From: an uncultured Bacteroidales bacterium
GTDB lineage: Bacteria; Bacteroidota; Bacteroidia; Bacteroidales; Bacteroidaceae
Assembly: GCA_902801425.1 (NCBI GenBank)
Contig: CADCIQ010000026.1
Location: 1-64,000 of the forward strand
Length of the DNA stretch: 64,000 bases
Direction: 5' to 3'
In this document: positions 11,568 through 21,290 of the stretch, piece after piece
Layout: each line of letters opens with the position of its first letter
Position numbering within the stretch: the stretch's first letter is position 1
Notes under the pieces: generated by a model
What the model was told of the DNA's origin: nothing
Database searches by the model: none
What the model saw: the letters and a program-made list of their open reading frames with translations, nothing else
Made by a program: the position numbers and the translations under genes

Positions 11568-12806
11568 TTATTTCCAAGCATCCCAATCATCGTATGCACT
11601 ACCATTGTTTGTAGATTCATTATATATATATTCAGAACTTTTTATTATATTATCAAATATATTTGTTAATGGCTTCATTATAATGTCGTCGTTCTCCGTG
11701 CTAATAGCCAAGCCATATGACGTTGATAGGATAGGACACAATTTTAAGTCTATAATTTCATCAATATCCTTGATGGACTGGACTTTCCATTCTTTGTGGG
11801 TAATCAGTTTACTGTCTTGATAACCACCATAACATTCACGCAAGTTCTTAAATGTACTACCACCACCACAATACACCAAAGGTCTGTTTTTCAGAGCGTC
11901 AAATAATTTATGAATATGAAACACTCTCTGCCTCATGAATTCATGCAAAAGCTTAGTTGTCAAAGATTCACATATTTGATTCACCTCTTTGATATACGCA
12001 TCTCTACGTTCTGGCTTTATTTCAGAAGCATCCAGCACGTTGCCCGCAATTCCACTCTGGTTGTTTTCATTTCTGTCAGTTAAGAAGTTAAGCCCTTTGT
12101 TAACGGAATAGAAGTCATAAATCTGCGGCTTATTGTTCTCAATGGTAAAGAAGGATATATCCGTTGTTCCTCCACCTATATCAATCATTAAACTCATACC
12201 ATCTGAAAGTTTCCCCTGACTTATAAGCGGTCTTAAACAAGCGTAGGCTTCGGGGAAAACCAACAAACCATATTCATCTTTGATTTCTTTTGAATAGGGT
12301 ATTATTTCTGTTAAATTCTCCAATTCCTTCTTAGGGGTAGCAAGGAACTTCTCTTTATCGTTGGCAAAAACTTCCTCAACAAGTCGATATGCAGATACGA
12401 TGATACGTGTTGCAATAGTCTTAGCCACGTTTACATGACTACTATCAGTCGGAACTCCCATCTGTATAGTGAAGTCCTGTCCATACATTTTCTCCAAATC
12501 GAACAGGATATATGCAAGATACCATATAGAGAAATACATGGCATCTATTCGCCGCATTTCTATTTCCGAAGGATAGAATGTACTTTGTTTAAAATAACGT
12601 ATGGTACGACCATCATATCTACAAGGTAAATAGCCATAGGATAATAAATTGTTTTCCCCTATCCCCACAATAGAGGGTAGGGTATAAAACTGACGATGGA
12701 ATGTATCTTCAAACTTCATGAAAGTGTAGCTAAGTTCTACGCCCTCTTTGTTCTCTATACAGACCTTTGTCTGATGTGTTCCAAAGTCAAGTCCTACTGT
12801 AATCAT
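11568..12806 (-). CDS. Actin/Hsp70-superfamily ATPase coupled to a SNF2 helicase
   Basis: The 412-aa protein shows the ASKHA nucleotide-binding signatures: phosphate-1 GLDFGTHQTK (5-14), phosphate-2 MIDIGGGTTDISF (207-219) and the adenosine motif VYCGGGS (311-317). It lacks the substrate-binding C-terminal domain of DnaK and ends with a short acidic, aromatic tail (YDDWDAWK). The start codon lies only 4 nt after the stop of the SNF2 helicase gene, so translation is coupled and the two products probably act together. Plasmid-segregation ParM or a DnaK chaperone are less likely, as there is no adaptor or J-protein gene. Function is unknown; a role in defence against phage or foreign DNA is an inference from the pairing and the location. 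Confidence 0.8.
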   Translation of the reverse strand: MITVGLDFGTHQTKVCIENKEGVELSYTFMKFEDTFHRQFYTLPSIVGIGENNLLSYGYLPCRYDGRTIRYFKQSTFYPSEIEMRRIDAMYFSIWYLAYILFDLEKMYGQDFTIQMGVPTDSSHVNVAKTIATRIIVSAYRLVEEVFANDKEKFLATPKKELENLTEIIPYSKEIKDEYGLLVFPEAYACLRPLISQGKLSDGMSLMIDIGGGTTDISFFTIENNKPQIYDFYSVNKGLNFLTDRNENNQSGIAGNVLDASEIKPERRDAYIKEVNQICESLTTKLLHEFMRQRVFHIHKLFDALKNRPLVYCGGGSTFKNLRECYGGYQDSKLITHKEWKVQSIKDIDEIIDLKLCPILSTSYGLAISTENDDIIMKPLTNIFDNIIKSSEYIYNESTNNGSAYDDWDAWK

Positions 12807-12810
12807 AATT

Positions 12811-15800
12811 TTAGATGATGTTTATTAGGTTTAATGAAACTATACTTTCGACAATCTCAATCTGCGAAGCCTCACGGATTTGAGTTAAGCGGTCTTCCTT
12901 CTCTTTTTCCATTTGCAGAATTCGAGTTTTAGCAAGACGGATTACACCTTGAAGTTGCTGTACCCTTTTATCGTCCACATTATATAGCATCTCTATATCA
13001 GACTCCCAATTACGAATATATCTGCGTTGATTGTCAATAAAAGAAGCATAATATTCATTCGTTTGCTTCTCATTTCTTTGTCTATCGCTCTCCACTTGAA
13101 GCTTTATCTCGGATAAGAGTTTATCTTTCACCTCGTTAATCTCCTCTACGAAATCGTAACGCATATCTTGAAGCATTTCGGTATCTATATCTGTATTGGT
13201 TGCATTGTGTTCTTTACCATCAGTTTGAGAACGCGAAAACACGCGGTTCACCATATCCTCATCCTTTACTATTTTCCTGTCATTCACACTATAAAGCAAA
13301 GGTAGTAATGTTTCCGTATGCTTTGGAACACCAAGCACTTTTCGGGTTACGCTCATCTGATAGACAATCATGTAATATGCAGAACCTTTCTGTAGCATAT
13401 CATCATTAGTCAACGCATAGCAGAATGATGTTTTAGCCTCATCATCATGTTTGCGGAAGTACTCTAAACATGCCAAAATGATAGGATTATAAATATTCAT
13501 AAACAATAGTTTCCTATTGTCGTATGCAACCTGCTGATTGAATGTCATGCGGAGCACCAGTTTGTCTTCTATTTCATGTTTGAACTGTTCGAAAAGACTT
13601 TTGCTTTCTTCACCACATGGTCGATAGCTTGTCAGAAAATTCCTGAGGATGCAAGGTTTACTTAATGGCAACTGCAACTCATATATAGCATCATCAACTT
13701 TCTCAAGTGTGCATGTGGTCAGTTCCTGACGAATAGCAGATTCCAGATAGTTACGAAGTTCAATCTCTGTAACGTATGCGTTATTGTTCTGGATGCGGTT
13801 TATTTCATCCTTGAAATAGGCATCATTGGTAAGAGCGTTATCAAGTCCTTCTTCCAGATGCTTGATGCTTTCCTTCTCGTTGGCAAAAGCGAGTTCTATC
13901 TCAGCAGCTTTTCTCTGCTTTTCTTCATCTGTCAAACGGCTTACATAGAGTTCTTTTCCCAGTTTATTATAAACATCTCGAATGGTAATGCTACCATCTC
14001 GTTCTAATGGTGCATCCATAATAGCTTCCATATCACCGATAGTTCCCCGAAAAATACCGATTCTGTCAAGAAGACGTATGCAAATATCCTCCAGAATTGA
14101 ACCAGCTACAATCATATTGTATATATTAACTGTTGGGGATTTCTGACCGAAACGATCAATACGACCGATACGCTGTTCAACGACCATCGGATTCCATGGC
14201 AAATCGTAATTTACCATGGAATTACAGAACTGCATATCCAAGCCCTCACTACCTACCTCTGAAGAAAGGAGAATTTGAGCATTAGGATTATTCTTGAACT
14301 CATCCAACACTTCAATACGGTTTTCAACCATACCATGAATCATCAATGCGCCAAAACCACGGCTCTTGAAGCGAATCTGGAGATATTTCAGGGTTTTGCG
14401 GAACAAGGCAAAGATGACAATTTTCTTTGTGCCGTGTTTGAAAACCTCATTGATGATTCTCAGCAACTCCTCGAACTTGGCATCTGTGTAATCTGCATAC
14501 TCATCAATTCCTTTGTCAAGACTGACCTCACTATTCAGATAGGCATAAACACTACTGGCTATTTGACGTTTTTTCTGAACCAACCCCAAAGCACCGCCTT
14601 GAGTTAGCACTTCTTCACCCCAATAGTCGGTATAGGAGTTGTCATCTCTATATTCCTCAATGACTCTATCAAACTCGATCTGCTCTTCTTTTGTCAAGAC
14701 AACTTTTCGCATGTGTGGCTTGCGCTCTGCCTGTGACATATCCGTAATAACTTCACGTTTACGAGTACGAGAGAAGATATTGTTCATCATGCTCATTGAT
14801 GAGATGAGGTATTGAAGACGTGCACGGTTTTTGGTGGTGTCCTCACCATTAAGCATTAGAATAATCTCCTGATACATTGCATCGTCAGCAAAAACTTTGC
14901 CAACAGTTGATTGATGTGAGAAAATTTCCACCTTATTAGAGAAGAAACGCGTGATGATTTCCGATTCATTCAGTTTTTTTGCAATAGTTGATAATGCCAC
15001 GTTATGGTTCAAATCGGTCAATGCTTCAACAAACGGACGATTTTCTTGCAACCGGTTATCGAAAATCTGATAGTTGTAATATTTTGTGTTGTCAAGCAGA
15101 TGCAGCAGATTATACAGATTCTCTGTACTAATCATGACTGGTGTGGCAGTCAAAAATACGGCAGCATCTGCATGACTCATAATAATTTCAGCGCCATCGT
15201 ATGTTTCATTATGATTACGCATTCTATGGGCCTCATCGCATAGCACAAGACTGAAGTGAAAGTCGTTAGCAGATAGAAAATCAACGATATTCTTTGGCAT
15301 ATCATCTTCCCCTTTCTTCCCCATATCACCATCCTTATACTTTTTCATGCGAATCTTCTCGTAATTTACGATGGCATGAACTGAAATACGATGATCCTGC
15401 ATTTCAGAAATAAGTTCCTTCTGACTTTCATATATTTTGAATTGCAGTCCAAACTTAAGTGACAACTCATCCTTCCATTTCTGTTGCAGAGATTTTGGGC
15501 ATACAATCAGCACATGGTGTAACTCTCGACGAGCTTTCAACTCCAACATGATATGACCTGCTTCTATCGTCTTACCAAGACCAACTTCATCAGCTACCAA
15601 CAATCTTCTGTTAGGAGAATTGAGAAATTTAAGCAAAGGCTTGAACTGGTAAGGACGGAATAACGTCTTTGAAGCTTTTAGTGAGGAAATGGTACTATTG
15701 TTTGAATTACGAATTTTAAAGGTCGTATTCTTCTTTGAGTATTCGGAATAAGAACCAAAGATTCCACTCATACAACGCTCAAACGGATCTGTAATGTCAC

Positions 15801-15963
15801 AATCAGGCAACAGATTCACCTCTAGTTCATCTGCAACAACGTTTCCCCAGCATACCTTGTAAAATTGGCGACCACCACGTCGAGGTGGCATGACCTCTAT
15901 TATGATGCCATGTCCATTGGATTCTGCTTTAACAACTTTGCTTCCTATTGCAAATTTACTCAT
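12811..15963 (-). CDS. SNF2/RapA-like DEAH-box helicase
   Basis: The 1050-aa protein begins with a small SH3/KOW-like segment (about 1-55, IGSKVVKAESNGHGIIIEV). The SNF2 ATPase core follows: Walker A DEVGLGKT at 125-132, Walker B DEAH at 243-246, TAT at 272-274, and in the second RecA lobe SSEVGSEGLDMQ (about 567-578) and QRIGRIDRFGQ (597-607). The rest is a long alpha-helical region ending in coiled coil (about 940-1040). SNF2 proteins of this type translocate on double-stranded DNA and may remodel bound proteins or polymerase. RapA itself is a housekeeping protein, but the partner ATPase, AT-rich setting and neighbours point to an accessory function. Confidence 0.88.
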   Translation of the reverse strand: MSKFAIGSKVVKAESNGHGIIIEVMPPRRGGRQFYKVCWGNVVADELEVNLLPDCDITDPFERCMSGIFGSYSEYSKKNTTFKIRNSNNSTISSLKASKTLFRPYQFKPLLKFLNSPNRRLLVADEVGLGKTIEAGHIMLELKARRELHHVLIVCPKSLQQKWKDELSLKFGLQFKIYESQKELISEMQDHRISVHAIVNYEKIRMKKYKDGDMGKKGEDDMPKNIVDFLSANDFHFSLVLCDEAHRMRNHNETYDGAEIIMSHADAAVFLTATPVMISTENLYNLLHLLDNTKYYNYQIFDNRLQENRPFVEALTDLNHNVALSTIAKKLNESEIITRFFSNKVEIFSHQSTVGKVFADDAMYQEIILMLNGEDTTKNRARLQYLISSMSMMNNIFSRTRKREVITDMSQAERKPHMRKVVLTKEEQIEFDRVIEEYRDDNSYTDYWGEEVLTQGGALGLVQKKRQIASSVYAYLNSEVSLDKGIDEYADYTDAKFEELLRIINEVFKHGTKKIVIFALFRKTLKYLQIRFKSRGFGALMIHGMVENRIEVLDEFKNNPNAQILLSSEVGSEGLDMQFCNSMVNYDLPWNPMVVEQRIGRIDRFGQKSPTVNIYNMIVAGSILEDICIRLLDRIGIFRGTIGDMEAIMDAPLERDGSITIRDVYNKLGKELYVSRLTDEEKQRKAAEIELAFANEKESIKHLEEGLDNALTNDAYFKDEINRIQNNNAYVTEIELRNYLESAIRQELTTCTLEKVDDAIYELQLPLSKPCILRNFLTSYRPCGEESKSLFEQFKHEIEDKLVLRMTFNQQVAYDNRKLLFMNIYNPIILACLEYFRKHDDEAKTSFCYALTNDDMLQKGSAYYMIVYQMSVTRKVLGVPKHTETLLPLLYSVNDRKIVKDEDMVNRVFSRSQTDGKEHNATNTDIDTEMLQDMRYDFVEEINEVKDKLLSEIKLQVESDRQRNEKQTNEYYASFIDNQRRYIRNWESDIEMLYNVDDKRVQQLQGVIRLAKTRILQMEKEKEDRLTQIREASQIEIVESIVSLNLINII

Positions 15964-16267: not shown

Positions 16268-16276
16268 GCAAAGATA
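16268..16276 (-). promoter_or_regulatory. Promoter of the SNF2 / actin-like ATPase operon
   Basis: On the minus strand TATCTTTGC is a full -7 match. The following 25-30 bp upstream (on the plus strand ATTATTTCAGTAAACACCAA) are nearly repeated beside the minus-strand promoter at 17476-17484, so the two operons share promoter-proximal DNA. Confidence 0.65.
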
Positions 16277-16521
16277 TAAATTATTTCAGTAAACACCAAA
16301 TTTTTTGATACATATTTATGAGATTTTTATGGGATTTTGATAAAAACATATGCAATCATATACAGATTCTCCATTCATCCTTTACAATCCCTCTGCTCTG
16401 GCCCTACTCCAGCAAAAGAGAAATAACGTTTTCACAATATAATTTCAAAGGAAAATAGTTAAATTTCACATAGATATTAGAAAAAGGCGAGTCAGAATTT
16501 TGTTAATCGCCAGAAAATTTG

Positions 16522-16530
16522 TAATTTTGC
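16522..16530 (+). promoter_or_regulatory. Promoter of candidate RNA A
   Basis: TAATTTTGC preceded by TTTTG about 20 bp upstream gives both Bacteroidetes promoter elements. The whole upstream region is conserved in unit B. Confidence 0.7.
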
Positions 16531-16533
16531 ACT

Positions 16534-16682
16534 CAATAATCAAGCCGTGGTCATCCTGTTGTATTCGCGTAGTGCAAAAGACCTCGCCCCGAGCCTTCAC
16601 CTTCCGCAAGGATTGTAAAGGGATCCACGCAAATTTTATGAGGCAAAATAAGCGCAGTTCATTTATGTGATCTGCGTTTTTT
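16534..16682 (+). ncRNA. Candidate small RNA A, convergent with gene A
   Basis: Between the promoter and a terminator-like hairpin (GCGCAG at 16652-16657, CTGCG at 16672-16676, then six T) there is no ORF of note. The 5' part can fold through GCAC (16529-16532) with GTGC (16572-16575) and AATA (16535-16538) with TATT (16562-16565), an outer-stem plan similar to the leaders at 3687 and 63702. CCTT-ccgc-AAGG forms a small hairpin near 16600. The 3' end overlaps the last codons of the opposite gene by about 24 nt, so an antisense effect is possible. Confidence 0.5.
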
Positions 16683-17273
16683 CGTTTTAGGTTGCTGTTC
16701 GTTTTTTATAAGTGGCTCTCCTGGTCGCAATGCAGAAACACCATACTCAACTCTTTGTTTTGAATGTTTGACACCAACTGTCAATTTGATTGTACCAAGC
16801 TCTACATGCCGATATACCATAACAAGCATATATGCAAACATCTGCTGGTTTCTATCATTTCCCTTTACAGCTACTCGTCTAACAGGTTGAGCATTTTTCA
16901 TCACTTCATCGAGAATCATAATTGCACGAGTTGAATTGTAACTTTTGGAAGAATGTTCCTTGGCTTCTATAACGGAAATACCTTTAATATAAATAAAATC
17001 TTGTAAGGCTTCGTTGAATATCTTTCCTTCGTCAAACCTATCTCGCCAAGTTTTAAAGAATTCGCCAATAAGCCCCTCGCGTTTTCTGATTTCTTCCATA
17101 GATTGCCCCATTGGAATACCATCTGCATCATATTCTATTTCCTTGTGTTCATCATTCTGTGATGGTGCATCTTCGCTGACACGCCATACAACATCATCCT
17201 CTGGCAGTTCATAGCCTTGCTCAAAGGAAATGTCAATCAATTCATATTCGAATATATATTCTTGCTCTGGCAT
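16659..17273 (-). CDS. Unknown protein A of the duplicated unit
   Basis: The 204-aa protein begins MPEQEYIFEYELIDISF. Residues 1-62 (very acidic, including GYELPEDDVVWRVSEDAP and EYDADGIPMG) are almost the same as in protein B. The C-terminal part shares only scattered positions with B: K(S/T)Y-x-ST at about 110-114, a helix ending in ENA/KNA-(Q/E), an N-Q motif, and IKLTVG-x-x-x-x-x-x-x-x-(Y/V)-x-x-x-A/V. The tail is basic (KTKKRRSHK). I do not recognise the family. The K-x-Y-x-S-T plus late tyrosine pattern is vaguely like small BECR-fold RNases, but this is speculation. It follows a 47-aa ORF by 33 nt. Confidence 0.8.
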   Translation of the reverse strand: MPEQEYIFEYELIDISFEQGYELPEDDVVWRVSEDAPSQNDEHKEIEYDADGIPMGQSMEEIRKREGLIGEFFKTWRDRFDEGKIFNEALQDFIYIKGISVIEAKEHSSKSYNSTRAIMILDEVMKNAQPVRRVAVKGNDRNQQMFAYMLVMVYRHVELGTIKLTVGVKHSKQRVEYGVSALRPGEPLIKNEQQPKTKKRRSHK

Positions 17274-17306
17274 GATTGTTTAGATTATTTTGTTTCCGAA
17301 AAGACG

Positions 17307-17450
17307 TTAGAGTTCTTCAAGAAAAGCATCAAGTGTCTGTTCTTTTTCTCCACAGGCTTCTGCCTTACGCATATTTTCAAATGCGCGATGAAGGCTCTCT
17401 TTTACATAGATCTGCTGTGATGTAGGATTACTTTCATGTTTCTTACTCAT
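17307..17450 (-). CDS. Small charged protein upstream of gene A
   Basis: The 47-aa ORF MSKKHESNPTSQQIYVKESL... is preceded by a full -7 box about 22 nt upstream of its ATG at 17448-17450. The open frame extends further upstream, but that part lies across the promoter. The peptide is predicted helical and ends TLDAFLEEL. It sits in the same transcript as gene A, so it might be an antitoxin or regulator for it; unit B has no equivalent. Confidence 0.6.
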   Translation of the reverse strand: MSKKHESNPTSQQIYVKESLHRAFENMRKAEACGEKEQTLDAFLEEL

Positions 17451-17475
17451 AACGCTAAGTGTTTTTATTCTGAGT

Positions 17476-17484
17476 GCAAAAATA
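17476..17484 (-). promoter_or_regulatory. Promoter of the 47-aa ORF / gene A operon
   Basis: TATTTTTGC on the minus strand, about 26 nt before the small ORF. Its upstream flank matches that of the SNF2-operon promoter. Confidence 0.65.
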
Positions 17485-17729
17485 CAAATTATTTCAGTAA
17501 CGACCAAATCATTCTCCATATTTTAGGAATTTTAGATTCATTCCTATGCTGATACTCCGCTAATCCTCTGCTTTTTCTCTGCTAAAGTTCTGCTTCCATA
17601 GTAAAGGAATAGCGTTTTCAAAGCGGTAGGATAACGTTTTTACAATAAAATTTCAAAGGAAAATAGTTAAATTTCATATAGATATTAGAAAAAGGAGAGT
17701 CAAGATTTTGTAAATCACGAGAAAATTTG

Positions 17730-17738
17730 TAATTTTGC
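17730..17738 (+). promoter_or_regulatory. Promoter of candidate RNA B
   Basis: TAATTTTGC with TTTTG about 20 bp upstream; nearly identical to the promoter of RNA A over some 90 bp. Confidence 0.7.
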
Positions 17739-17741
17739 ACC

Positions 17742-17849
17742 GTCACTTAGAGGAATTCGCAGAAAGGATGACAACCTTTATAATCCCATACAGGGATTGT
17801 TTCGAGCCTCAAAGCATAAGCCACTCCACGAAGAGTGGCTTTTCTTTTT
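17742..17849 (+). ncRNA. Candidate small RNA B, ending just before gene B
   Basis: About 107 nt between a strong promoter and a strong terminator, with no meaningful ORF. Internal hairpin ATCCC-ataca-GGGAT lies at about 17783-17797. The core GATGACAACCTTTATA resembles GAGTGACAAGCCCTATT of the leader at 3687, and CGAGCC follows in both. This suggests that RNAs A and B and the two leaders descend from one element, but the match is short. Confidence 0.5.
17818..17849 (+). terminator. Terminator of RNA B
   Basis: Perfect 7-bp stem GCCACTC (17820-17826) with GAGTGGC (17833-17839), loop CACGAA, followed by TTTTCTTTTTA. Confidence 0.85.
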
Positions 17850-17850
17850 A

Positions 17851-18390
17851 TTATTGTCGAGGAACTGTTATACAATACTGTACAAAATCCTTATTCGTTC
17901 GCTGAAGCCCAACAGTTAATTTGATGTTCTTATACTTCATATAGAGTATCTTATCATATTGTTTCTGGTTTTTGTTGTTCTTTGGGATAACCTCGTCAAC
18001 CAGTTCCGCATTTTCCAATATTTCTGTCAACTGAAATACTGCAAGTGTGGAATCGTATGTGCGTGAAGCTTTTGAATACGTTTCATTTATAGACTGGTAC
18101 TTTACAAGAATATTGTTTTTAAGCCACTTGTTCATAATAGCTTTGTCAGGATGTTCGGCAATCCACTTAGCATAGAAATCTTTTATCATTTTCTCACGAA
18201 TCTTTATCTCTTGCTTAGATCTGCCCATGGGAATCCCATCAGCATCATATTCTATGGACTTGTGTTCATCATTCCGTGATGGTGCATCTTCGCTGACACG
18301 CCATACAACATCATCCTCTGGCAGTTCATAACCCTGATCAAAGGAAATATCAATCAGTTCGTATTTGAATATACATTCTTGCTCTGGCAT
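17851..18390 (-). CDS. Unknown protein B of the duplicated unit
   Basis: The 179-aa paralogue of protein A starts MPEQECIFKYELIDISF and shares the acidic N-terminal 60 residues (VVWRVSEDAPS, YDADGIPMG). After that it diverges: AIMNKWLKNNILVKYQSINETY, SRTYDSTLAVFQLTEILENAEL, and the end IKLTVGLQRTNKDFVQYCIT. Strong N-terminal conservation with a variable C-terminus suggests that the N-terminal part binds a common partner while the C-terminal part is specific. Its ATG lies 11 nt after the GH2 stop codon, so it is probably transcribed from the GH2 promoter. Confidence 0.8.
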   Translation of the reverse strand: MPEQECIFKYELIDISFDQGYELPEDDVVWRVSEDAPSRNDEHKSIEYDADGIPMGRSKQEIKIREKMIKDFYAKWIAEHPDKAIMNKWLKNNILVKYQSINETYSKASRTYDSTLAVFQLTEILENAELVDEVIPKNNKNQKQYDKILYMKYKNIKLTVGLQRTNKDFVQYCITVPRQ

Positions 18391-18401
18391 GATTGTTTAG
18401 A

Positions 18402-21290
18402 TTATTTCACTTTAGGTTTCAGCTCATCAGGAGAGTCTTTGGTGAACATATCCACCTTCGGAGCCTCTTTCTCATAGAGATTACGTATCACGCTCTCGTC
18501 GAGGGTGATAGTTGGCTTGAAATCGGGGCTCTTCATATAGTTTATGATACTCTTGCGAAGCTGACGGGCAACGAGACGGTTCCTGAGATTTGAGGTAATA
18601 TCAATAGTGGTCATCAGAAGCTTACCGCCAAGCACATTAGCCTCTATGATCATACCGCACTTACGACTTACATGCCAAGTATCTATCGGCTGCATAGGTG
18701 GCTGATAATCAGCAGGAAACTCAGAGAGATTCATTACCTGAGCACGATTAACGAGTTCCCACCAGTTAAGGTCTGTCCAGTCGTCGGTAGGGAAATCACA
18801 ATACACAGGATGAGTGCTATCGATATATGCTCCCGTGACATGAGGCGGACGCATCTTGAACCAAGAGGTGTTCCAGAACACAGGCAGATAGTTCTGCTTT
18901 ATGTCATTGCCATAGCGCACCTTTCCAGCTGCCGTAAGAAGCACCTTATGCCCACGCTTCAAGGTCTCTATCGCCCAAGTGTCGAGAGTATCAGAAATAT
19001 ATACTCCGTCAACAAAGCCCTTCTTCAGTTCCACTTTAGCCTTCACGCTTTCCGATTCCCTTTCAAGAGACGGAACAACCCAGAAATCCCAATGATTCTT
19101 CCATTCCCTTTCGCCTGATGAAATAGTGACGCTAAGAGTGAGTTTACTTGGATCTATGAAAGATGTGAGAGGGAAGGTGAAAGTACCCAAATAATGATTC
19201 TTGCCAAGAGGTATAGGTGACAAAGGAACATCAAATGATGAAGAATACGCAAACTTTTCACTTTCCGCCTTATCCTTTACACCCTCCGTAATGCTATACT
19301 CCACCTTTGCATCCTCTATTTCACTTGCAGAGGCATTATATACCTCAACAGGCACTCGAAGGGTATCGGAAGAGGAATAGACGAACTTAGGGAACTTAGC
19401 CAAAGGCACGACATCATTGCAGAACTCAGTCCACTCTGACGCATCCACATATCCCTTCTCCTTCCAATGCACATTGAGAGGCCCGACCAAGGCTGTTCCC
19501 TGACCGCTATAGTCGTTCAAGCCAAGGAGCACGAAGCCAGCATAGCCATTGGTGCGGAGATTACGCTCTATCTCATATTTATATGCAAGAGTCTGCAACC
19601 TACCGCTCGACATAAGGAATTTATCCGCCTGTGAAGCCATTCCGTTATCACGAAGCAAGTCCTCGAAGATGTCAAAATTCTTCGCCTTATATGCTCCTGT
19701 ATATTGAGAGCGTTCCTTTAGGTCAGGAAAGGCGCACCATTGCCCTTGTTCATGGCAGATGATGGGCGAATTGTTTGGCACACTATCCTTATAGTTGCGT
19801 GGAAAGAGGATGTCCTTGGTGTAGTCATCATCAGAATGAGGCGCGTGGCGATTCCAGTCGAGACCTCGTCCCCCACCCTTCACATGATACTGAGAGCCGC
19901 TATCCCATGCCCAGCCGCCACCTACGTTAGCACCACAATAGATACGGCGCGAGTCGGTGTTTCTCCAATAGTCAACCCACGAATTGCACCATTTCACCCA
20001 ATCACCAGCCGGCTCATTTCCGGCACTCATCATAAGGAAAGACGGATGATTGCCATATGCCTCAACCATACGCTTTGTCTCGTCCATGAGATACTGATCA
20101 ATAGCCATTCCACGACAAAGTTTCACACCATGATTAGGCCATGAAGGTCCTTCGGGCTGAAGATAGAAACCGAGACGGTCAGCCACACGGAAAGCAGCCT
20201 CTGGAGGGCAATAGGAATGGAATCGCATAGTGTTGAGACCGTATTCCTTGCACTTACGGAAAACTCTTTCCCATGAAGCCTCATCGGTTGGAGGATAGCC
20301 CGTTTCCGGGAAACAGCAGTTACCCACGGTTCCACGCACATAAATAGGCTTTCCGTTGAGAAGAATATCCATTCCGTTCACTTTTATCTCTCTCATTCCA
20401 AAGGTTGTAGTGTAAGAATATCCGTTGGCATCGCGCACCTCAAGGGTATAAAGATTCGGATGAAACTCATCCCATAGCCTTACATCATCACCCATACGAA
20501 TGACATACGAGCTATCAGATTGAGCCACAGCCTTACTCTCTTTTCCGTCAATGAAGAAAGACATGCCTTGGGTGTTGCCTCTGAGCACAATACGGATAGC
20601 ACCATGAGAGACATCCGGATATACGTCAATATGCTCAATAGCATTCAGCGGACGGGCTGATAGTGAAATATCTCCTGCAATACCATTCCAGTTGCCTTGT
20701 GTCTGATCGGTAACGGAATGTGAATCCTGTCCGACGCATACGTTCTCTATACCATTATATACCTTGATTGCCACGGAGTTTTCCTTGCCAATTTTGATAT
20801 AATCAGTAACATCATAGAGATGGGGAGCAGAAAGTCCCATCTGATGTCCAGCCTCCTTACCATTAATGAATACGGTGGTCTCTATATGAGGTCGTTCAAG
20901 AGTAAGAATGATACGTTGTTTTTTCCATTCCTTTGGAACGAGAACCTTTCTGCGATACCACGCATTGCCCGTATAGTGGCGTTCAGGAGTAAGGAAGAAC
21001 GGGAATTTCATCTGCCCCTCAATACGGTATTTCTCCATATATGGATTGAAATAGAAGGAAGAATCGTAAAGAGAGCCTGTCCATTGTGTTTTCACGGACA
21101 CCAGATCGCCTTTGCCTCGCGTAACCATAGAGCCAGGCAACAGGATAGTATCATCATAAACAGATACTGGCGTAACGGAATTTTCGCTACGCTGAATCTG
21201 AAACTCCCAAGTTCCCGAAAGGTCTATCTTGTTTTGGGCAGATGCAGAAATTGCCGATGTTATAGCTATTAAGGCAAGGATTTTCTTCAT
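18402..21290 (-). CDS. GH2 family glycoside hydrolase (beta-galactosidase/glucuronidase-like)
   Basis: The 962-aa protein has a signal peptide (MKKILALIAITSAISASAQ). The GH2 domain order follows: jelly-roll sugar-binding domain with WYRRKVLVPKEW and FINGKEAGHQMG, an Ig-like domain, and a TIM barrel with NGKPIYVRGTVGNCC, GLNTMRFHSYCPP and SAGNEPAGDW (N-E acid/base, about residue 420). CHEQGQWCAFPD probably carries the nucleophile Glu (about 515). Exported GH2 enzymes remove beta-linked terminal sugars from polysaccharides. Substrate cannot be told; no SusC/D genes are adjacent. The -7 box TATATTTGC ends four bases before the ATG, so the mRNA is leaderless or nearly so. Confidence 0.9.
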   Translation of the reverse strand: MKKILALIAITSAISASAQNKIDLSGTWEFQIQRSENSVTPVSVYDDTILLPGSMVTRGKGDLVSVKTQWTGSLYDSSFYFNPYMEKYRIEGQMKFPFFLTPERHYTGNAWYRRKVLVPKEWKKQRIILTLERPHIETTVFINGKEAGHQMGLSAPHLYDVTDYIKIGKENSVAIKVYNGIENVCVGQDSHSVTDQTQGNWNGIAGDISLSARPLNAIEHIDVYPDVSHGAIRIVLRGNTQGMSFFIDGKESKAVAQSDSSYVIRMGDDVRLWDEFHPNLYTLEVRDANGYSYTTTFGMREIKVNGMDILLNGKPIYVRGTVGNCCFPETGYPPTDEASWERVFRKCKEYGLNTMRFHSYCPPEAAFRVADRLGFYLQPEGPSWPNHGVKLCRGMAIDQYLMDETKRMVEAYGNHPSFLMMSAGNEPAGDWVKWCNSWVDYWRNTDSRRIYCGANVGGGWAWDSGSQYHVKGGGRGLDWNRHAPHSDDDYTKDILFPRNYKDSVPNNSPIICHEQGQWCAFPDLKERSQYTGAYKAKNFDIFEDLLRDNGMASQADKFLMSSGRLQTLAYKYEIERNLRTNGYAGFVLLGLNDYSGQGTALVGPLNVHWKEKGYVDASEWTEFCNDVVPLAKFPKFVYSSSDTLRVPVEVYNASASEIEDAKVEYSITEGVKDKAESEKFAYSSSFDVPLSPIPLGKNHYLGTFTFPLTSFIDPSKLTLSVTISSGEREWKNHWDFWVVPSLERESESVKAKVELKKGFVDGVYISDTLDTWAIETLKRGHKVLLTAAGKVRYGNDIKQNYLPVFWNTSWFKMRPPHVTGAYIDSTHPVYCDFPTDDWTDLNWWELVNRAQVMNLSEFPADYQPPMQPIDTWHVSRKCGMIIEANVLGGKLLMTTIDITSNLRNRLVARQLRKSIINYMKSPDFKPTITLDESVIRNLYEKEAPKVDMFTKDSPDELKPKVK

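Follow-up and report, generated by a model that had tools for sequence, protein, structure and literature searches.

Known type III toxin-antitoxin (TA) systems are, as far as the cited passages go, operons with an upstream repeated RNA (PMC5086642). AbiF-RCd22 of Clostridioides difficile, in the parts of its description that bear on the mechanism, contains a toxin outside the ToxN families that is neutralised via direct RNA-protein interaction (PMC12373285), and thus RNA antitoxins exist outside ToxN-type families. Here, we analysed a 64,000-nucleotide (nt) stretch of DNA from an uncultured Bacteroidales bacterium (hereafter the window; contig C26 of a 3.9-Mb draft genome) that harbours two tandem units, each composed of a Bacteroidota-type promoter, a predicted terminated RNA of about 110-150 nt and a convergent protein gene whose product is related to the LPD3 domain family. 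We consider it fairly probable that each unit is a two-part TA module, in which a predicted RelE-like RNase would be kept inactive via direct binding of its own folded RNA.

With the type III systems (ToxIN, CptIN, TenpIN, AbiQ) the units share a predicted protein toxin and a short, structured, pseudoknotted RNA, and in both cases RNA and protein diverge together. Yet, the RNA is convergent here and has its own promoter, whereas type III RNA, in the material cited above, lies upstream and is co-transcribed from one promoter with a terminator in between. Besides, each unit holds a single RNA, without tandem repeats in window positions 16400-18500, and by sequence-family comparison the proteins match LPD3 and no ToxN-type family. 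AbiF-RCd22 differs as well: within the sections consulted, RCd22 is upstream, co-transcribed and carries two repeated motifs, and AbiF is an Abi_2/AbiD/F protein rather than an LPD3 protein. The RelE/ParE superfamily of type II toxins (RelE, YoeB, BrnT, HigB) provides the closest solved folds of the predicted core, albeit as a weak match, but there is no constant small-protein neighbour here to serve as antitoxin, and an RNA appears to take that place. Phage polyvalent and MuF-like proteins, finally, have the domain in common with protein 2, which passes the LPD3 Pfam cut-off, whereas here LPD3 is a stand-alone chromosomal protein with an RNA partner. The best reading by analogy is hence a module that would work like type III systems but is not one, being convergent, free of repeats and built on a different toxin family.

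Anatomy of the two units

The features of the locus are as follows (D1 and D2 denote the two repeats shared by the units).

16423-16532, plus strand: constant promoter block of RNA1; 110-nt repeat D2, 92% identical to 17631-17740; TAATTTTG at 16522-16529, TTTTG at 16498-16502
16530-16682, plus strand: predicted RNA1, class A; structured part 16530-16647, terminator hairpin about 16650-16682
16659-17273, minus strand: protein 1 gene, 204 amino acids (aa), likely toxin, LPD3 family via homology to protein 2; constant N-terminus about 17121-17273, variable core 16662-17120 (both minus strand)
16533-17075, no strand assigned: variable cassette of unit 1 (most of the core plus RNA1), the gap separating D2 and D1
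17076-17290, minus strand: constant block at the start of gene 1; 215-nt repeat D1, 87% identical to 18193-18407
17631-17740, plus strand: constant promoter block of RNA2; TAATTTTG at 17730-17737, upstream TTTTG
17738-17850, plus strand: predicted RNA2, class B; structured part 17738-17814, terminator about 17818-17850
17851-18390, minus strand: protein 2 gene, 179 aa, likely toxin, LPD3 family; constant N-terminus about 18238-18390
17741-18192, no strand assigned: variable cassette of unit 2 (core plus RNA2), the gap separating D2 and D1
18193-18407, minus strand: constant block at the start of gene 2, repeat D1

Bacteroidota promoters follow the consensus TAnnTTTG, which TAATTTTG fits. Both predicted promoters were identified by eye, the model of the sigma-70 scan not covering promoters of this type, and the bounds of the RNAs were inferred from promoter and terminator positions. 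Hairpin-plus-T terminators were predicted at about 16650-16682 (z -5.1) and 17818-17850 (z -4.9); the terminator scan reports that of RNA2 and not that of RNA1, while the fold z-scores support both. RNA2 itself folds with a z-score of -2.3.

D1 and D2 are the only ungapped direct repeats of at least 20 nt in 16400-18420, and the promoter repeat ends no more than 3 nt from where the RNA is predicted to begin. Between units 1 and 2, the N-terminal block (92%) and the promoter (91%) are nearly constant (shuffled controls 50% and 55%, respectively), while the core (52%, control 47%) and the RNA (45%, control 45%) are divergent. Against locus L028 the pattern is reversed (N-terminus 62%, core 64%, RNA 77%, promoter 61%), and therefore core and RNA seem to stay together while N-terminus and promoter act as their flanks. 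To judge from these identities, the protein core and the intervening RNA have diverged as one cassette. As the two form one contiguous block between constant flanks, crossovers in both flanks would swap both partners jointly. This agrees with a preliminary description of the DNA, which had seen here a tandem RNA-plus-protein module with constant N-terminus and promoter, whose RNA and variable C-terminal part had changed in parallel. A third unit, with its own class A RNA, is present on contig C6 of the same genome. Locus L007, a Bacteroidales metagenome-assembled genome, has a single unit of the gene 2 type at the matching place, beside the same upstream gene.

Linkage and matched change of RNA and protein

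A convergent promoter motif (TAnnTTTG, or one base more in the gap) was found 25-165 nt past the stop codon of all 34 distinct LPD3 open reading frames (ORFs) of at least 120 aa in Bacteroidales, as compared to 18/156 control ORFs, a range that had been set after the LPD3 loci had been viewed. The 34 ORFs came from the loci of the genus, family and order searches plus L007, and correspond to 37 rows (two window rows repeat L006, and L014 repeats L007), with the fused L054 protein excluded; controls were other ORFs of the same loci and of the window, 6 further ones lying too close to an end. The stricter motif TAnnTTTGC was present in 32/37 LPD3 rows, duplicates included, and in 4/156 controls. 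The preliminary description had expected homologues to have a linked RNA that co-varies with their C-terminal domain and had named as decisive against its idea that most of them lack one; what we observed is a promoter-led RNA at every one of the 34.

The linkage can also be read from the RNA side. Model R1, built from 12 class A RNAs with RNA1 excluded, finds 8/8 held-out class A RNAs (E 7.4e-9 to 0.0052), RNA1 among its matches (E 8.3e-4), with a single chance match (E 0.35) in 291,246 bases from 47 sources. Model R2 finds 14 distinct RNAs of class B, including one that was held out, and gives RNA2, which is itself part of the model, 82.3 bits. Across 249 genomes of the genus, the two models yielded 8 (R1) and 10 (R2) matches, 14/18 of which adjoin a protein match, under strict filters that missed two known class A RNAs (that of G157 and the window's RNA1). 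Fourteen of these genomes have a protein match, 14 an RNA match and 11 both (about 0.8 expected by chance); among the three with protein only, G157 has an RNA in a less filtered search and G034 and G099 hold fragments.

At the 34 ORFs, 17 RNAs belong to class A (as RNA1), 10 to class B (as RNA2) and 7 to neither, the latter assigned by eye to class C (two), class D (two) or standing single (three). When these seven RNA groups were placed on a tree of the 34 cores, 6 changes sufficed, the minimum possible; shuffling gave a mean of 15.1, and none of 200 shuffles reached so low a number. Class B forms one branch (95/97), while class A and class C require two changes each, in a tree with 10/31 inner branches well supported. 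Besides, RNA and protein distances are correlated within classes (Mantel r 0.77, n=17, and r 0.81, n=10; p 0.0001 each), and shared descent contributes to both the tree fit and this correlation. With RNA and protein changing in matched fashion across related genomes, we regard the protein as a likely toxin, which would be restrained by its own RNA. Further RNAs unlike A and B occupy the same position past divergent LPD3 genes at L044, L045, L046, L049, L051, L052, L053 and L055, each type having too few members for structure testing.

For class B (13 sequences), a structure of 19 pairs in four helices was drawn, with 95.1% of cells paired. Ten pairs and 27 cells have changed on both sides, compared to 4.9 and 7.4 in shuffled alignments (0 of 500), counted on the same 13 sequences from which the structure was drawn, and this exceeds every slid version of the alignment; further pair types did not exceed the shuffled values (92 of 500). 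The pseudoknot helix, which joins the leader with the P2 loop, is 88.5% paired, with 2/4 pairs changed on both sides. In class A (20 sequences), native P1 duplexes are far more stable than swapped ones (-11.8 vs -8.5 kcal/mol; 0 of 10,000 permutations), whereas the energy swap tests for the pseudoknot and P2 were negative. The class A pseudoknot 4-mer is exactly complementary in 20/20 sequences (CCCC/GGGG in 15, CCTC/GAGG in 4, CCCT/AGGG in 1), the tail of L034 having been read by eye. In these alignments, class B pairing including the pseudoknot, and the class A outer helix, covary. In line with the preliminary description, the RNAs appear to lack a reading frame, as no ORF is conserved across either class; a short peptide frame of class A is missing from divergent members, and a coding RNA was rejected. 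Transfer RNA or transfer-messenger RNA was likewise rejected, none having been found. In Rfam, the window gave no gathering-level match, and ten other loci searched up to E 1 gave three matches, all under cut-off, including RF00558 on the L037 RNA (E 0.41, 26.5 bits, gathering 58.7), which we take as chance.

A further trait of the loci is their asymmetry. While a promoter-led RNA is missing at 0/34 of the longer ORFs, 12 loci have an RNA with a broken or absent protein: eight keep it beside a broken or incomplete protein (L021, L022, L024, L025, L026, L048, L050 and L051, the class C RNA of the last assigned by eye), and four (L056-L059) keep a class A or B RNA without an intact protein gene, L057 retaining a C-terminal remnant. 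No RNA was seen at the protein fragments L023 and L027, and L041 stops at a contig end. Retention of the RNA with decay of the protein is the pattern that would be expected of a toxin and its antitoxin, although the gene also offers the larger target.

Protein 2 belongs to LPD3 (PF18798; 33.9 bits vs a curated cut-off of 27). Protein 1 remains under that cut-off (15.1 bits) and shares 53% identity with protein 2; the protein 1 model is matched by a viral LPD3 protein (E 3.9e-5). Scanning both against Pfam up to E 1 revealed no family besides LPD3, and none of the ToxN/CptN/TenpN type. The AlphaFold models have a mean predicted local distance difference test score of 83.6 for protein 1 and 82.9 for protein 2. 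Among the best 45 Protein Data Bank (PDB) rows for protein 2, 36 are toxins of TA pairs (RelE, ParE, YoeB, YafQ, HigB, BrnT and others) and 4 are toxins of contact-dependent inhibition (CDI), which leaves RegB, Cami1, Txp40 and two hypothetical proteins of Helicobacter; with protein 1, TA or CDI toxins occupy the top 12 rows. Thus, the predicted folds resemble RelE/BrnT-type toxins weakly but consistently. ToxN-type toxins are not among the fold rows listed for either protein, which carries no weight either way. Residues E103, S114, T115 and K137 are invariant in 105 aligned sequences. We also looked for the constant N-terminus on other toxin cores, a candidate that was dropped: with the search limited to a relative protein length of 0.55-1.75, all 40 matches to residues 1-58 had already been found by the full-length search.

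Competing explanations and a proposed mechanism

A matched pair of toxin and RNA antitoxin, one of the options put forward in the preliminary description, is the reading that best fits the linkage, the tree fit and the distance correlation. Tight linkage and matched divergence would, however, fit any obligate RNA-protein complex, and the RNA could instead be a required guide or cofactor of an effector in a chromosomal defence system. We regard this as unlikely, though the most serious of the rivals, given that RNAs persist without an intact protein at 12 loci, that by eye the aligned RNAs contain no obviously variable guide segment, and that no constant neighbour occurs among those scanned. 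Indeed, 130 neighbouring ORFs of at least 130 aa were mixed, with the commonest PADLOC and Pfam families in 3/130. A protein antitoxin was rejected on similar grounds: when the 235 small ORFs (30-129 aa) near the 34 genes were compared, the widest set was found in 8 loci, and this set (8/34 loci) reads across the RNA region itself. With large neighbours mixed and small-ORF sets in at most 8/34 loci, the RNA-protein pair seems to stand alone. Only slightly less probable than the effector is that the protein is no toxin at all and rather a regulator or RNA-binding protein with the RNA as its target or sensor, for instance in an RNA processing pair. The fold match is weak, after all, and LPD3 is given no function in the relevant part of PMC5512222; yet the patchy distribution (14/249 genus, 12/399 family and 11/393 order genomes with a profile match), the decay of the protein while the RNA is kept, and the toxin-type fold neighbours speak against it.

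The convergent layout raises the question of a type I-like antisense mechanism, in which the RNA would pair with the toxin mRNA and block its expression. Predicted RNA1 does overlap the last 24 nt of gene 1, but predicted RNA2 ends about at the gene 2 stop codon, predicted pairing with the 5' region of the gene is no better than shuffled (mean z -0.24, 20 of 34 loci, range -1.86 to 1.69), and antisense action requires neither covarying helices nor a pseudoknot, all of which makes this improbable. The ordinary explanation, namely that an unrelated small RNA or terminator follows a duplicated gene by chance, can draw on the promoter-like motifs past 18/156 control ORFs; it is contradicted by the linkage, with 34/34 loci, covarying structures and an RNA class that fits the protein tree, and we deem it exceedingly improbable.

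Under the favoured reading of an RNA-inhibited toxin, transcription of the RNA would start at a promoter directly behind the gene and run towards it, and the RNA would be produced in excess while being less stable than the protein. Should this transcription halt, e.g. upon host shut-down by a phage or upon loss of the locus, the RNA would decay first, and the freed toxin could then cut RNA so that growth stops. Toxicity, RNase activity, RNA expression and neutralisation by RNA-protein contact are what we infer from the comparisons above, and a role in phage defence or maintenance may likewise be envisaged. More broadly, we see about even chances that the units represent a new polymorphic TA type across Bacteroidales, with RelE-fold LPD3 toxins, convergent single-copy pseudoknotted RNAs of many unrelated folds, and core plus RNA traded as a cassette, and that MuF phage toxins ending in LPD3 may be RNA-guarded too. 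If the TA reading holds, LPD3 would gain a function, and RNA antitoxins would be known from one more toxin fold, from a gene layout new to them and from an order that is common in gut and rumen; the units would also illustrate the joint exchange of a toxin with its RNA. As class A and class B units co-occur in the window's genome, cognate specificity is directly testable. No description of the LPD3-RNA pair was found in the titles and opening abstract lines of the open-access literature, the scope of a search that lay outside subscription papers and preprints; nor is the pair described in the passages drawn from PMC8040213, PMC11980606, PMC8770471, PMC10910872 and PMC11699363.

LPD3 elsewhere and neighbouring genes

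The profile counts given above include the window's own genome in each of the genus, family and order sets, and some matches are fragments; the named sources of protein relatives are Prevotella or Prevotellaceae. Across the phylum, LPD3 was found in 3/247 genomes, the two besides the window's genome having it in longer ORFs (471 and 2,067 aa), and it was absent from 14 control genomes. According to the pertinent sections of PMC5512222, LPD3 was described in 2017 without an assigned function. Phage or plasmid cargo was rejected as an explanation, with no protein match in viral_contigs, phages or plasmids, and the exact RNA pattern was not found in viral_contigs either.

LPD3 lies at the end of the 581-aa L054 protein and is also C-terminal in a MuF-like phage protein (Phage_Mu_F match under cut-off), the C-terminus being the place of toxin domains in the MuF-like family, as stated in portions of PMC11699363 and PMC5512222. 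Long LPD3 ORFs are not clean as negative controls: TAnnTTTG occurs 65 nt past the stop of L054 and at 103 nt in L060, while L061 has none within 165 nt of its stop. At L060:2475-2577, a convergent TATCTTTG and a GC-rich stretch, possibly with structure, come after the MuF-like protein that has LPD3 at its C-terminus; this layout is also seen in three IMG/VR contigs (L062-L064; 94-100% identity).

Several observations concern the surroundings of the units. A CRISPR-like array with 47-nt repeats, recognised by eye, adjoins the unit of L007 (L007:6162-6894). Between the two units of the window lies a small ORF of 47 aa (17307-17450, minus strand) without a confident family, a relative of which is located just upstream of the L013 gene. 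Finally, window positions 11568-15963, adjoining unit 1, encode a DrmD-like SNF2 helicase (PADLOC DrmD, E 2e-111; NCBIfam DISARM_DrmD, 329.8 bits, under the cut-off of 610) and, after it, a protein whose matches are weak and actin-like; the two are possibly a defence pair.

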